Shown: one piece after another, positions 21,199 through 59,151 of the stretch
How positions within the stretch are numbered: position 1 is the stretch's first letter
Layout: each line of letters begins with the position of its first letter
Assembly: GCF_022848905.1 (NCBI RefSeq)
Contig: NZ_JAFIRA010000004.1
Coordinates: forward strand, 1-64,000
Source: Thermostichus vulcanus str. 'Rupite'
GTDB taxonomy: Bacteria > Cyanobacteriota > Cyanobacteriia > Thermostichales > Thermostichaceae
Reading direction: 5' to 3'
Length of the DNA: 64,000 bases
The notes under the pieces: model-generated
What the model was told of the DNA's origin: nothing
What the model saw: the letters and a program-made list of their open reading frames with translations, nothing else
The model's database searches: none
Translations under genes and position numbers: made by a program

Positions 21199-22476
21199 AT
21201 GGCTCATTCTCTTAATCGTCGCCAGCTCATCAAAATGGGTGCCCTAGCTGGGGCGGGGGTAGCTCTCGGGCCGCACCTTTGGGTCAAGCGTTCTCTGCCT
21301 GCCTATGCTCAAGGGGAAACGATCAGAGTCGGGATCCTGCACTCCCTTAGCGGTACCATGGCAATTTCGGAAACCAGTGTGGTGGATGCCGAGCGACTGG
21401 CCATTAAAGAGATCAATGCTGCCGGTGGGGTGCTGGGGAAACAGATTGAGGCAATTGTGGAGGATGGAGCCTCCGATTGGCCCACTTTTGCCGAGAAAGC
21501 CACTAAGTTGATCGACTCTGACAAGGTGGCAACGGTGTTTGGCTGCTGGACTTCCGCCAGCCGTAAGGCTGTGCTGCCGGTGTTTGAATCCAAGCAGCAC
21601 CAGCTCTGGTATCCGGTGCAGTACGAAGGGCAGGAATGCTCCAAAAACATCTTCTACACGGGAGCTGCTCCCAACCAGCAGATTGAGCCTTCAGTGGAAT
21701 GGCTGCTCAACAACAAAGGCAAAGAATTCTTCCTGGTGGGATCCGATTACGTGTTCCCCCGCACCGCCAACACCATCATCAAGGCGCAACTGGAAGCCCT
21801 GGGTGGCAAGGTGGTGGGTGAAGACTACCTGCCTCTGGGCAACACGGAAGTGACTCCGATCATCAGCAAAATCCGAGCCGCTCTCCCCAATGGCGGCGTC
21901 ATTTACAATAGCTTGAACGGTGACAGCAACGTGGCCTTCTTCACCCAGTTGCAAGGGGCAGGGTTGGGGCCGGATCGTTACCCCTCCATGTCCGTCAGTA
22001 TCGCTGAAGAAGAAGTGCAGGCCATCGGCCCCGAATTTCTGGAAGGGCACTATGCTGCCTGGAACTACTTCATGACGGTGGATACCCCGGCCAACAAAAA
22101 GTTTGTGGAGGCTTTCCGGGCAGAATACGGCCAAAACCGTGTCACCAACGACCCGATGGAAGCCGCCTATATCATGGTTTACATCTGGAAGCAGGCGGTG
22201 GAGAAAGCCGGAACCGTAGAGATCGATGCAGTGCGGCAAGCTGCCTACGGCCAGACCTTCGATGCTCCAGAAGGGATGGTGACTATGAACACCAACCACC
22301 ATCTCACCAAGTATGTGCGGATTGGGCAAGTGCGTTCCGACGGGCTGTTTGAGGTGATTTCAGCCACTGATGCCGTAGATCCCTTGCCCTGGAACCAGTT
22401 TGTGGCGGAAACCAAGGGCTACGCCTGTGACTGGTCGGATCCAGCCAAGGGCGGTCGTTACAAAGTGGAAGCGTAA
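21199..22476 (+). CDS. urtA: Urea ABC transporter substrate-binding protein UrtA
   Basis: Periplasmic high-affinity urea receptor of the UrtABCDE importer. The 425-residue protein starts with a Tat-like signal ([18 protein letters not shown]...PAYA), followed by the type I binding fold ([70 protein letters not shown]). The WTSASRK and QYEGQE segments are characteristic of UrtA rather than of branched-chain amino acid receptors. It is the first gene of urtABC-uma2-urtDE, with a CGGAG site upstream. A strong hairpin (22493-22534) separates it from urtB. Confidence 0.95.
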
Positions 22477-22492
22477 TCTCAGTGTCTGAAGG

Positions 22493-22534
22493 TCGGGATC
22501 CCCTGGCTAGGACTGAGGCCAGAAGGGATCCCGA
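22493..22534 (+). terminator. Compound hairpin between urtA and urtB built on two GGGATCCC octamers
   Basis: Outer stem: TCGGGATCCC (22493-22502) pairs with GGGATCCCGA (22525-22534). Inner stem: CTGGC (22503-22507) pairs with GCCAG (22518-22522), with a two-base AA bulge on the 3' side and a ten-base apical loop. That is 15 pairs in total, beginning 16 bases after the urtA stop. ATTTACTGTT follows, a weak T-rich stretch. It may be a partial terminator or an mRNA-protecting structure that favours UrtA over the permeases. Confidence 0.6.
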
Positions 22535-22611
22535 TTTACTGTTCAGGGAGGGGGTTGAGTCTTCCTTCCATGAAGCTTCCCTAGGTTCGTTCGCACAAGG
22601 ATCGCCAGCTT

Positions 22612-23769
22612 ATGACCTTGCTCTTCGACAGTTTGTTTAATGGCATCAGTATCGGCACTGTCCTGCTGATTGCGGCTTTGGGCTTGGCGATTGTCTTTGG
22701 CCTCATGGGGGTAATCAATATGGCCCACGGCGAGCTGATGATGTTGGGGGCCTACACCACCTTTGTGGTGCAAAATGGCTTCCGACAATTGGGGGATCCC
22801 TGGCGGGATTTCTACATTTTTCCAGCTTTGATTGCGGCTTTCTTGGTCACCGCTTTGGTGGGGTGGGGTCTGGAACGGGGGGTGATCCGCTTCTTGTACG
22901 GTCGTCCACTGGAAACTCTACTGGCCACCTGGGGAGTCAGCCTAATCTTGCAGCAGTTTGTACGCAGCGTTAATTGGGTGCTGGCGTTACGGCTGGGGGG
23001 GTTTGGTTTGCTGTTTTTTGGAGGCTGGTGGTTGCTGGCCAAACGGGTGGATTGGCAGCGGATCAAAGGCTGGGTACTCACCTTACTGCTGGTGCTTTCC
23101 ACGGCGATTGTGACCGTGGGTGGGCGGGTGTTGGCGCAAACCTATGCCCTAGCGGTTACACAACCCTGGTTTGGGGCTCAAAACAAGGACGTGACTGCCC
23201 CCCGTTGGCTGCGAGGTGGGATCCCAGTGGGCAATCTCTTCCTACCCAATACTCGCCTGTTTATCATTAGCCTCACCCTTCTCTGCATCATCGGTCTGTA
23301 CATTTTTCTGCAGCGCACCCGCTGGGGACTGCGCATCCGGGCGGTCACGCAAAATCGGGCCATGAGTGCTTGTGTGGGGATCCCGACCCGAACCGTGGAT
23401 GCCCTTACCTTCGCGATTGGATCTGGTCTAGCGGGGGTGGCAGGAGTGGCGGTCAGTTTGCTGGGATCCGTGGGGCCCAATACCGGTCAAAACTACATCG
23501 TTGATACCTTCATGGTGGTTGTGGTGGGCGGTGTGGGCAAGCTCTTGGGCAGCATTATGGCAGCTTTAGGCATTGGTATTGCCAACTTTTTGATTGGTTC
23601 CGGCACCTTGGCCTTGATCCTTCCGGGAGTACCCCTATTGACGGATACCCTGAACTTTTTTGCCACCACCAGTATGGCGAAGGTGATGGTTTTTGCTCTG
23701 ATTGTGGCCTTTTTGCAGGTGCGCCCGCGGGGTCTTTTCCCGGAAAAAGGTCGAACAGTGGATGCCTAG
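22612..23769 (+). CDS. urtB: Urea ABC transporter permease UrtB
   Basis: Membrane subunit of the LivH type, 385 residues with eight or more hydrophobic helices. It begins MTLLFDSLFNGISIGTVLLI, with the conserved GLAIVFGLMGVINMAHGELMMLGAY and the coupling-helix region IRAVTQNRAMSACVGI. The second half has GLAGVAGVAVSLLGSVGPNTGQNYIVD and VVVVGGVGKLLGS. An AAGGA site lies ten bases upstream. The central region (residues about 100-200) includes an extra hydrophobic stretch compared with LivH, as expected for UrtB. Confidence 0.93.
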   Translation: MTLLFDSLFNGISIGTVLLIAALGLAIVFGLMGVINMAHGELMMLGAYTTFVVQNGFRQLGDPWRDFYIFPALIAAFLVTALVGWGLERGVIRFLYGRPLETLLATWGVSLILQQFVRSVNWVLALRLGGFGLLFFGGWWLLAKRVDWQRIKGWVLTLLLVLSTAIVTVGGRVLAQTYALAVTQPWFGAQNKDVTAPRWLRGGIPVGNLFLPNTRLFIISLTLLCIIGLYIFLQRTRWGLRIRAVTQNRAMSACVGIPTRTVDALTFAIGSGLAGVAGVAVSLLGSVGPNTGQNYIVDTFMVVVVGGVGKLLGSIMAALGIGIANFLIGSGTLALILPGVPLLTDTLNFFATTSMAKVMVFALIVAFLQVRPRGLFPEKGRTVDA

Positions 23770-24956: not shown

Positions 24957-25535
24957 ATGGGGCAGATCACGATGGCCACTACCCTCACTTCCCCCCACTC
25001 TCTGGAGGAGTTCCTAAAGTTGCCGGAGGAGAAACCGGCGCTGGAGTTTTTCGACCATCGAATTTACCAAAAACCTATGCCCAGGCGCCGACATAGTATC
25101 CTTCAGTTTGAGATTTCCTCTGCCATTAACCAGATAGCCAAGCCGGCAAAAATCGCCTATGCCTTTCCTGAACTCCGCTGTACGTTTGCAGGACGCTCAA
25201 TCGTGCCTGACATTGTTGTCTTACTCTGGGAGCATATTGAGTTTGGTAGTGATGGAGAACCGCGTGATGATGTCTTGATCTCGCCAGATTGGATGATCGA
25301 GATCCTTTCCCCTGAGAAAAACTCTGGATGGGTGATCCGTAAGATTTTGTTTTCCCTGGAACAAGGAGGACAGCTCGGCTGGCTTGTGGATCCGGGCGAT
25401 TGCTCAGTGGTTGCCTTCTTTCCAGATCGCCTGCCCAAAAGTTTACAGGGATCCGACCCATTGCCCGTTTTGTCCGGGATCCCTTGGCCAATCAGTGCCG
25501 ATCAACTGTTTGATTGGTTGAAAATGAGTGTTTAA
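24957..25535 (+). CDS. Uma2 family (DUF820) putative restriction-endonuclease-fold protein
   Basis: The 192-residue protein matches the Uma2/DUF820 family, expanded in cyanobacteria, with a PD-(D/E)XK nuclease fold. It has EEFLKLPEEKPALEFFDHRIYQKPMP at the N terminus, then the acidic core VPDIVVLLWEHIEF and PDWMIEILSPEKNSG; the candidate catalytic acids are D in VPDIVV and E in IEILSP. The lysine after the E is replaced by S-P-E-K, as in many members. The biological role is unknown. It interrupts the urt operon in the same orientation, 32 bases after urtC and 32 before urtD, so it is probably co-transcribed with it. Confidence 0.9.
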   Translation: MGQITMATTLTSPHSLEEFLKLPEEKPALEFFDHRIYQKPMPRRRHSILQFEISSAINQIAKPAKIAYAFPELRCTFAGRSIVPDIVVLLWEHIEFGSDGEPRDDVLISPDWMIEILSPEKNSGWVIRKILFSLEQGGQLGWLVDPGDCSVVAFFPDRLPKSLQGSDPLPVLSGIPWPISADQLFDWLKMSV

Positions 25536-56788: not shown

Positions 56789-57958
56789 TTATCGCTCCAC
56801 CAATTTGACACGGGCATTGATCCAGTTCATACCGTAGGAGACCACTAGGTTTATGGCGAGGTAGGTGGCCATGATGATGGCAAACATTTCCACCGAGCGC
56901 CCCGACTGGTTGATGATGGTGCTGCTGATGTTAAACAGGTCGGAAAAGCCAACCGCAATCGCCAAGCTGGAGTTCTTGATCAGGGTGAGATACTGGGTAT
57001 TCAAGGACGGGATCATGATCCGCAGCGCCTGCGGCACGATCACCAGCTGAAAGGTGCTCAATTCTGTTAGGCCAATCGCTCGAGAGGCCTCCCACTGACC
57101 CCGCTGCACCGCCAAGAAGGATCCCCGTACCACCTCGGCAATGTAGCAGCCGGTGTAGGTGACCAAACCCAGCAACATGGCGGTAAACTCTGCCGAAAGT
57201 TGGGTTCCACCCCGGAAGTTAAAGCGATCCAGCACTGGAACATCCACTCGCAATGGCGGCTCGGGGAAAAGAATCCAACAGGCGACCGCCAGCAGCAGCA
57301 CCCCTAACCCTATCAAGCTGTTTCGCTGGATTGGTCCCACATCCGGGCGGCGGGCCAAGAGCAGTTTGCGGATCCCCCAAGCGGCTCCGGCCAAGATGAC
57401 GACTGTCGGGATCAGCCACCCACTGGGATCCAAACTGGGTAGGTTAATCCCCCGCTGACTGATGAAGAAAAAGCCCCCAATCGAGTAGCTGTTGCGGACT
57501 GCGGGCAACGTCAGGATCACCCCTTGGTACCAGAAGATGACGATCAGCAGCACCGGGACATTGCGAAAGATCTCGGTGATGACTGTGGCCAATTGACGGG
57601 CTAGCCAGTTGCTGGAGAGGCGAGCCACCCCCAAGATCATCCCCATCACTGTCGCCAACACAATGCTGATGGAGGATAGCCAAAGGGTATTCACCACCCC
57701 GACTACAAAAGCCTTTAGGTAGCTCTCCGAGGGGTCATAAGGGATCCCTTCGGTGATGCCAAAGTTGGCGGAATTGCCCAAAAAGCGAAACCCAAAGGTT
57801 ATCCCCAAGCGGCGCAGGCTACTGGTCAGGTTCTGGGTAAGGATCCCGAACACCACCAGCACTGCAATGACAAAAGCCACTTGCAAGAGAATTTTGAGGA
57901 TACGTTCGTCTCGCCACCAGGTGGGCTGAATATGGGGTTGGCTGGAAAGAGAAGTCAT
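56789..57958 (-). CDS. natG: Amino acid ABC transporter permease NatG-like (AapQ/BztB type)
   Basis: First membrane subunit, 389 residues, with a helix near the N terminus (ILLQVAFVIAVLVVFGIL). It has a large periplasmic insertion (residues 50-100 and 170-240) typical of the Aap/Bzt group. The HisM-type core is FRNVPVLLIVIFWYQGVIL and then ASRAIGLTELSTFQLVIVPQALRIMIPSLNTQYLTLIKNSSLAIAVGF. With NatH it forms the heterodimeric channel. The 155-base gap before it, after natF, holds a compound hairpin. Confidence 0.85.
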   Translation of the reverse strand: MTSLSSQPHIQPTWWRDERILKILLQVAFVIAVLVVFGILTQNLTSSLRRLGITFGFRFLGNSANFGITEGIPYDPSESYLKAFVVGVVNTLWLSSISIVLATVMGMILGVARLSSNWLARQLATVITEIFRNVPVLLIVIFWYQGVILTLPAVRNSYSIGGFFFISQRGINLPSLDPSGWLIPTVVILAGAAWGIRKLLLARRPDVGPIQRNSLIGLGVLLLAVACWILFPEPPLRVDVPVLDRFNFRGGTQLSAEFTAMLLGLVTYTGCYIAEVVRGSFLAVQRGQWEASRAIGLTELSTFQLVIVPQALRIMIPSLNTQYLTLIKNSSLAIAVGFSDLFNISSTIINQSGRSVEMFAIIMATYLAINLVVSYGMNWINARVKLVER

Positions 57959-58034
57959 GGGTCTCTAGGCAGTCCAAACAGACAAGTCCAAACAAGTCCA
58001 AAAGATGCTAGGAGAAAGCTCTACTTTTCCCCCA

Positions 58035-58071
58035 AGGGATCCCCATCCAGTCTGTGCCAGACGGGATCCCT
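58035..58071 (-). terminator. Compound hairpin between natF and natG built on two GGGATCCC octamers
   Basis: Read on the minus strand: AGGGATCCC (58071-58063) pairs with GGGATCCCT (58043-58035). Inside it GTCTG (58062-58058), loop GCA, CAGAC (58054-58050) form a second stem, with six unpaired bases on the 3' side (58049-58044). Fourteen pairs in total. It begins 43 bases after the natF stop. The downstream sequence is G/A-rich rather than T-rich, so it is more likely a 3'-end stabiliser or a partial block than a classical terminator. It parallels the urtA-urtB hairpin. Confidence 0.55.
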
Positions 58072-58113
58072 GTTTTGGAGGTCAGATCAGCAGCATGGGA
58101 GCTGGGTTCCGAA

Positions 58114-59151
58114 TTAGCGGAAGGGAGGCGCGTACTGGATCCCACCCTGGGTATAGGGCTGGTTCAAGCCACGAGCTACTCCCAAGGGAGTCAGATGGCG
58201 ATCGAAGATCTCACCATAGTTGCCGACTGCCTTGATCACGTTGACCGTCCAATCCGGTTCCAACCCCAGCAATTCCCCTAGGTTGCCATCTTGGCCCAGA
58301 AACCGCCGGATATCGGGATCCTCAGAGCTGAGGAACTCCTCGACATTGGCGCTGGTAATCCCCTTTTCTTCTGCGTAGAAGAGGGCGTAGACTGTCCAGT
58401 TCATGATGTCGGAAAAGCTCTCATCCCCTTGCGACACCAACGGTCCCAAGGGTTCTTTGGAGATCACTTCCTCTAGGATGACGTGATCATCAGGGTTTTG
58501 CAGGGTTGCCCGGCGAGAGATCAACGCACTTTGGTCGGAGGTGATGGCATCACAGCGTCCTTCTTCATAGGCATTGAAGGAGGAATCGTCCCCATCAAAA
58601 GTCACCGGCGTAAAGGCAATGCCGCGAGCCCGGAAGGTATCCGCCAGGTTTAGCTCCGTGGTGGTACCGGCAATCACACAGATGGTGGCTCCATCCAAGT
58701 CTGCCAGATCTTCAACTCCCAACTCCTTCTTCACCATGAACCCTTGGCCATCGTAGTAGGTGGTGGGGCCAAAGGTGACTGCCCATTCCCGGTCACGAGT
58801 TAGGGTCCAGGTGGTGTTGCGGCTCATAATGTCCACTTCGCCAGACTGCATTGCCGACTGACGGTTGGCAGCCGTGAGATAGACATATTGAATTTTGTCC
58901 GGATCCCCGAAAAGGGCAGCAGCGACAGCGCGGCAAATGTCGATGTCGAAGCCGACGTAGTTTCCATTTTCATCAATGTTGCCAAACCCCGGTAGCTGGT
59001 TATTCACACCACAGATCAGCTCGCCCCGAGCTTTCACCCGATCAGTAATCGGCCCTATCTGGGCTTGGGCAGGAATCGACTGCACACCCATGGATACAGC
59101 CAAAGCTCCGGCCAGGAGAGCCAACCCGTTTAATTGCTTCATCAATTTCAT
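58114..59151 (-). CDS. natF: Amino acid ABC transporter substrate-binding protein NatF-like (AapJ/BztA type)
   Basis: Periplasmic receptor of a general polar amino acid importer, 345 residues. The signal peptide ends QSIPAQA. The core has RGELICGVNNQLPGFGNID, NYVGFDIDICRAVAAALFGD, NRQSAMQSGEVDIMSRNTTWT and GRCDAITSDQSALISRR, all landmarks of the AapJ/BztA family. GAGG lies seven bases upstream of the ATG. It is the first gene of natF-natG-natH; a hairpin after it may keep the receptor in excess. Confidence 0.9.
   Translation of the reverse strand: MKLMKQLNGLALLAGALAVSMGVQSIPAQAQIGPITDRVKARGELICGVNNQLPGFGNIDENGNYVGFDIDICRAVAAALFGDPDKIQYVYLTAANRQSAMQSGEVDIMSRNTTWTLTRDREWAVTFGPTTYYDGQGFMVKKELGVEDLADLDGATICVIAGTTTELNLADTFRARGIAFTPVTFDGDDSSFNAYEEGRCDAITSDQSALISRRATLQNPDDHVILEEVISKEPLGPLVSQGDESFSDIMNWTVYALFYAEEKGITSANVEEFLSSEDPDIRRFLGQDGNLGELLGLEPDWTVNVIKAVGNYGEIFDRHLTPLGVARGLNQPYTQGGIQYAPPFR

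Follow-up and report, generated by a model that had tools for sequence, protein, structure and literature searches.

The window analysed here, a stretch of 64,000 nucleotides, contains a urea ABC transporter operon in which the genes for the substrate-binding protein (urtA) and a permease (urtB) are separated by a gap of 135 nt (22477–22611). The original prediction placed a hairpin at 22493–22534 in this gap, with two octamer arms, a flanking TC/GA and an inner CTGGC/GCCAG stem. The sequence matches that description, and the naming of the flanking genes as urtA and urtB is borne out by scores above the cut-offs of TIGR03407 and TIGR03409. The features at this locus are:

21199–22476, forward strand: urtA, urea ABC transporter substrate-binding protein (TIGR03407, 604.8 bits against a cut-off of 492.75)
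22492–22535, forward strand: intercistronic hairpin with two GGGATCCC arms, outer TC/GA (plus a G·U pair), inner CTGGC/GCCAG and a 3′ AA bulge, without a U-tract
22495–22502, no strand assigned: left arm GGGATCCC, a HIP1 derivative by its count and PMC4390886
22503–22522, forward strand: inner stem CTGGC/GCCAG and loop, assessed by shuffling given the arms and by comparison with relatives
22525–22532, no strand assigned: right arm GGGATCCC, a HIP1 derivative on the same grounds
22612–23769, forward strand: urtB, urea ABC permease (TIGR03409, 372 bits against a cut-off of 250.3)

The outer stem pairs TCGGGATCCC (22493–22502) with GGGATCCCGA (22525–22534), and the inner stem pairs CTGGC (22503–22507) with GCCAG (22518–22522), leaving AA bulged at 22523–22524; the structure is lengthened by a G·U pair between 22492 and 22535 and by one inner U·G pair. 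Folding of the RNA from 22450 to 22620 gives a z score of −4.4, with none of 200 dinucleotide shuffles equally good, and the hairpin is the strongest among the eight co-directional gaps in the window. It is a stable stem-loop set between a binding-protein gene and a permease gene in a single operon, as expected of the malE–malF type. There are several things that it is not. First, the sequence directly 3′ of the stem is GATTTACTG and not a U-tract, so that it does not qualify as an intrinsic terminator, and a scan of the gap for promoter-like and terminator-like sites found none. Second, the Rfam covariance models gave no credible match to a known family, and a plasmid search found no match. 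Third, the gap sequence is single copy in the genome, so the hairpin is not a dispersed whole palindromic unit of the REP kind; the iterated part is the octamer only. Further downstream, an Uma2-family open reading frame (PF05685, a putative restriction endonuclease; 24957–25535, forward strand) lies between urtC and urtD and breaks the urt operon.

The octamer GGGATCCC is reported to prevail among HIP1 derivatives in Synechococcus JA-3-3Ab and JA-2-3B (PMC4390886), and this signature assigns the window to a cyanobacterium of the JA-type Synechococcus group, from hot springs. Here it behaves as such a derivative, with 118 copies in the 64-kb window where 2.4 are expected, and octamers lying 12–32 nt from one another form 105 pairs genome-wide (43–89 in five sister species). 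Because the octamer is so dense, an octamer–octamer stem is cheap in this genome, and both the density and the 105 close pairs favour the view that the hairpin is a by-product: the octamers would be kept for some reason at the level of DNA (a HIP function, e.g. methylation) and stand 22 nt apart by chance, the hairpin having no role in RNA and its inner stem being accidental. The general conservation of the octamers points the same way. Among aligned cases between the window and one related genome (G001), 65% of octamers are conserved as against 16% of arbitrary 8-mers, and preservation of the arms is therefore weak evidence, and no proof, of selection for a hairpin. Nor are octamer pairs generally enriched between genes, since 4 of 47 in 1.2 Mb of G001 are intergenic where about 12% of the DNA is; a class-wide recruitment of the pairs into intergenic gaps was rejected on this count. 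Finally, the inner stem at urtA–urtB, given the octamers, beats chance slightly and marginally: when the inner 22 nt are shuffled, about 4% of the shuffles fold at least as well (p about 0.04), and the pair ranks third in stability among 50 tabulated from this genome.

Two other settings of the octamer were recorded. A third octamer pair follows a pflB-like gene and has equal octamer spacing in three species (G001 contig C1, 493685–493730; G002 contig C1, 256881–256926; G000 contig C12, 9301–9346); it was set aside, its inner stems being no better than shuffles (p 0.06–0.34). The pyruvate formate-lyase-like gene upstream is named from the G001 sequence, and orthology across the three species is apparent through the similarity of the inner sequences. 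In addition, a CRISPR-like array on contig C2 of the window's species, at about 17.1–20 kb (L272, 1639–3905 and on), holds about 44 copies spaced 72–80 nt apart of a repeat, GTTTCCAATTTATGGGGATCCCTAATGAATAGGGAC, that includes GGGATCCC.

Comparison within the genus covered six species genomes, those of the window's species (G000) and of G001–G005. An octamer-pair hairpin is present between urtA and urtB in G004, G001, G002 and G003, that is, in four species beside the window's; one arm in G003 is GGGATTCC, with pairing retained through G·U, and the counterpart in G001 comes third among the 73 of one sample from that genome. The sequences 3′ of the arms in the genus (GATTTACT, GCCTTAGT, GCTCTGCT and GCCTAGAT) are without a U-tract. 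The inner stem, CTGGC/GCCAG in G000, is TTGGT/GCCAG in the nearest species, G004 (two one-sided changes to G·U), where it is worse than shuffles (p 0.68) and the whole gap has a z score of +0.18. In the clade of G003, G001 and G002 it is imperfect, with one mismatch and an alignment that requires a 2-nt indel, and in G005 the octamer pair is lost and a longer gap carries a different hairpin (z −2.4). With G·U-only change, mismatch and loss among the relatives, the compensatory changes in CTGGC/GCCAG by which the original prediction was to be checked have no clean case. In the G005 gap (L004, 194 nt), copies of TTCTCAGGAT(C/T)G in a near-tandem arrangement make a long hairpin in place of the octamer pair. 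An additional hairpin in the window at about 22541–22575 was dropped, as 5 of its 13 pairs are broken in G004.

The other clear boundary between binding-protein and permease genes in the window, within an amino-acid transporter locus, also has an octamer pair (58036–58070). The features are:

56789–57958, reverse strand: amino-acid ABC permease gene (PF00528, TIGR01726)
58034–58072, reverse strand: second octamer-pair hairpin, in the gap between the binding-protein and permease genes (octamers at 58036–58043 and 58063–58070; inner stem of 6–7 bp with a 1-nt bulge)
58114–59151, reverse strand: SBP_bac_3 (family-3) amino-acid ABC substrate-binding-protein gene (PF00497)

This second element is recognisable in all six species, with 27 nt from the start of one octamer to that of the other and an alignment of 41 columns that is free of gaps. 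In G000, G001, G002 and G005 neither octamer is altered; the right one is AGGATCCC in G004, and the left one is GGAATCCC in G003. The structural model has a stem of eight octamer pairs and an inner stem of seven, with a loop of four bases and a single bulged base; 95.6% of cells are paired under it, and at most 67% if it is slid by one column. Variation among standard pairs is seen at five of the seven inner positions, two of which have changed on both sides (G-C with A-U, and G-C with U-A); the inner stem reads AUUCGGU/ACCGGAU in G004 and GGUUGGU/ACCGGCC in G001. In a fixed register 6, 7 and 7 of the seven inner positions pair in three lineages, with a joint shuffle p below 1e-5 (0 of 100,000 trials) if the lineages are independent, and the covariation score is reached by 18 of 500 column shuffles. 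Since the independent lineages are few and the score is reached by that many shuffles, the covariation is moderate evidence, and at that strength the inner stem appears to keep its pairing through sequence change.

Two relatives show variants of the amino-acid locus. In G005 the binding-protein gene (contig C35, 8865–9532; L275, L281) matches residues 175–345 only, its open reading frame being 215 aa long, and is truncated, frameshifted or misassembled; the octamer-pair hairpin 3′ of it is intact. In a sister genus (G007, L283) GGGATCCTG...CAGGATTCC stands in the corresponding gap as an imperfect, octamer-like hairpin with a z score of −0.1.

Outside the genus, urtA–urtB gaps were taken from 57 genomes, of which 55 could be folded, and compared with 261 co-directional gaps, comparable in length and drawn from the same regions (up to 20 kb); these controls rest on a simple ORF caller, and in one family (f24) they show much structure of their own. 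For the best local hairpin the median z is −2.77 in the urtA–urtB gaps and −0.64 in the controls (p 6e-12; 1e-9 with pairing by genome and 4e-5 with pairing by 18 families), and the longest gapless stem is at least 11 bp in 60% of urtA–urtB gaps as against 23% of controls. Grouping by shared 12-mers divides the 35 hairpins of z below −2 into 30 sets, so that most are unrelated in sequence; they start at a median of 40 nt past the urtA stop codon, and only 8 of the 35 have at least five T in the next 8 nt. Median gap lengths within the operon are 139 nt for A–B, 13 for B–C, −26 for C–D and 6 for D–E, and the end of urtA is thus the one place with a long structured gap. For the amino-acid binding-protein gap in other cyanobacteria, the excess of structure is no more than weak (p 0.05 over 14 folded gaps).

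These comparisons bear on the by-product explanation in three ways. First, cyanobacteria outside the genus have a hairpin of other sequence in the same gap. Second, maintenance of octamers does not explain the covariation of the inner stem in the second element. Third, binding-protein–permease boundaries account for two of the window's three listed close octamer pairs, an observation made post hoc. Set against the points in its favour, they leave an origin of the hairpin as a by-product of octamer maintenance unlikely. A hairpin at this position could instead halt or slow some of the RNA polymerase and lower transcription of urtBCDE, and terminator-like sites are indeed found in 24% of urtA–urtB gaps elsewhere and in 9% of controls. 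To our knowledge cyanobacteria are without Rho, so that a non-canonical terminator is possible. Terminators within transcripts of PCC 7942 often reduce downstream transcription (PMC3219970). However, the U-tract is missing both in the genus and from most hairpins elsewhere, and the gap in the window has no terminator-like site; we regard attenuation or pausing as distinctly improbable. Least credible by far is the settling of a dispersed REP- or MITE-like insertion in a tolerant gap, which would suit the highly iterated arms and the parallel with malE–malF, where REP is used, but is disfavoured by the single copy of the gap sequence and by three unrelated hairpins tested in other cyanobacteria, none of which has a near-identical second copy in its own genome (a dispersed-repeat origin being unsupported in all three tests).

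From the structure and its position, the recurrence of hairpins at the urtA–urtB boundary across cyanobacteria and the covariation of the second element, we infer action as RNA, protection of urtA and a change in subunit ratio. The recurrence and the covariation favour this reading despite the marginal inner stem, and on balance we lean towards the hairpin being an mRNA element of the urtA 3′ region that raises UrtA over the membrane complex. The original prediction, of an iterated palindrome turned into an intercistronic mRNA hairpin favouring urtA, gains from both lines of evidence and is left without clean compensation in the inner stem at urtA–urtB. The hairpin most likely works as a stabilising or processing hairpin of the malE–malF type. 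The transcript of urtABCDE is probably cleaved, or comes to an end, on the far side of the hairpin; the stem would halt 3′-to-5′ trimming and leave the urtA message more durable than that of urtBCDE, which would yield soluble binding protein in excess of the membrane complex. In JA-type Synechococcus the arms consist of two iterated GGGATCCC copies, with inner and outer pairs added, and a sister element of like design lies 3′ of the amino-acid binding-protein gene. The comparisons suggest, without proof, that the hairpin sets the ratio of urea-binding protein to membrane-channel protein.

Published observations fall on both sides of the stabilising model. In E. coli, where ABC-operon messages decay unevenly, the stabilised segment is a binding-protein gene in five instances, malE included, and 3′ hairpins are present at 76% of 5′-stabilised boundaries (PMC5927463). 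The anatomy at urtA–urtB fits that pattern, with the binding-protein gene first, the hairpin soon after its stop codon, no U-tract, and permeases and ATPases downstream. Counting against the model, hairpins without U-tracts are not tied to longer half-life in PCC 7002, where half-life increases along operons, the opposite of what the model needs (PMC7406221), and stabilising structures are largely absent at U-less 3′ ends in PCC 7942 (PMC13289151). In Microcystis under low nitrogen the urtA transcript changes −1.5-fold and those of urtB, urtC and urtD +2.2-fold or more, a response that shows uncoupling, whatever its cause (PMC3720943). It is possible, though we hold it with some doubt, that JA-type Synechococcus has co-opted the HIP palindrome found throughout its genome as ready-made stem arms, that the 3′ ends of messages for binding proteins are marked by octamer pairs with private covarying inner stems, and that the hairpin which cyanobacteria generally retain at urtA–urtB is replaceable and non-homologous.

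The element differs from that of malE–malF in having arms of a HIP-derivative octamer and not of REP, in its Rho-less cyanobacterial host, and in being described here from its sequence. It shares with malE–malF and other differential-decay boundaries of E. coli a stable hairpin without a U-tract, a place between binding-protein and permease genes, and a position at the start of an ABC operon (PMC5927463). The octamer is identical to the highly iterated HIP1 derivative of JA-type Synechococcus, but the paper describing it, in which a word search finds no mention of a hairpin, treats it as a DNA motif linked to methyltransferases (PMC4390886). There is a likeness too to Clostridium operons subject to selective RNA processing and stabilisation (PMC4423207, PMC8219983), where the proportions of subunits are proposed to be set by stem-loops lying 3′ of particular genes; those systems belong to another phylum and other operons, and have processing-site maps in their support.

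How mRNA 3′ ends are defined and protected in Rho-less cyanobacteria is an open question (PMC13289151), and HIP palindromes are not known to have a settled function. A hairpin of unrelated sequence that recurs at one operon boundary phylum-wide offers a testable site, and its octamer-pair version provides an example of how a repeat of the DNA level could serve again as RNA structure.
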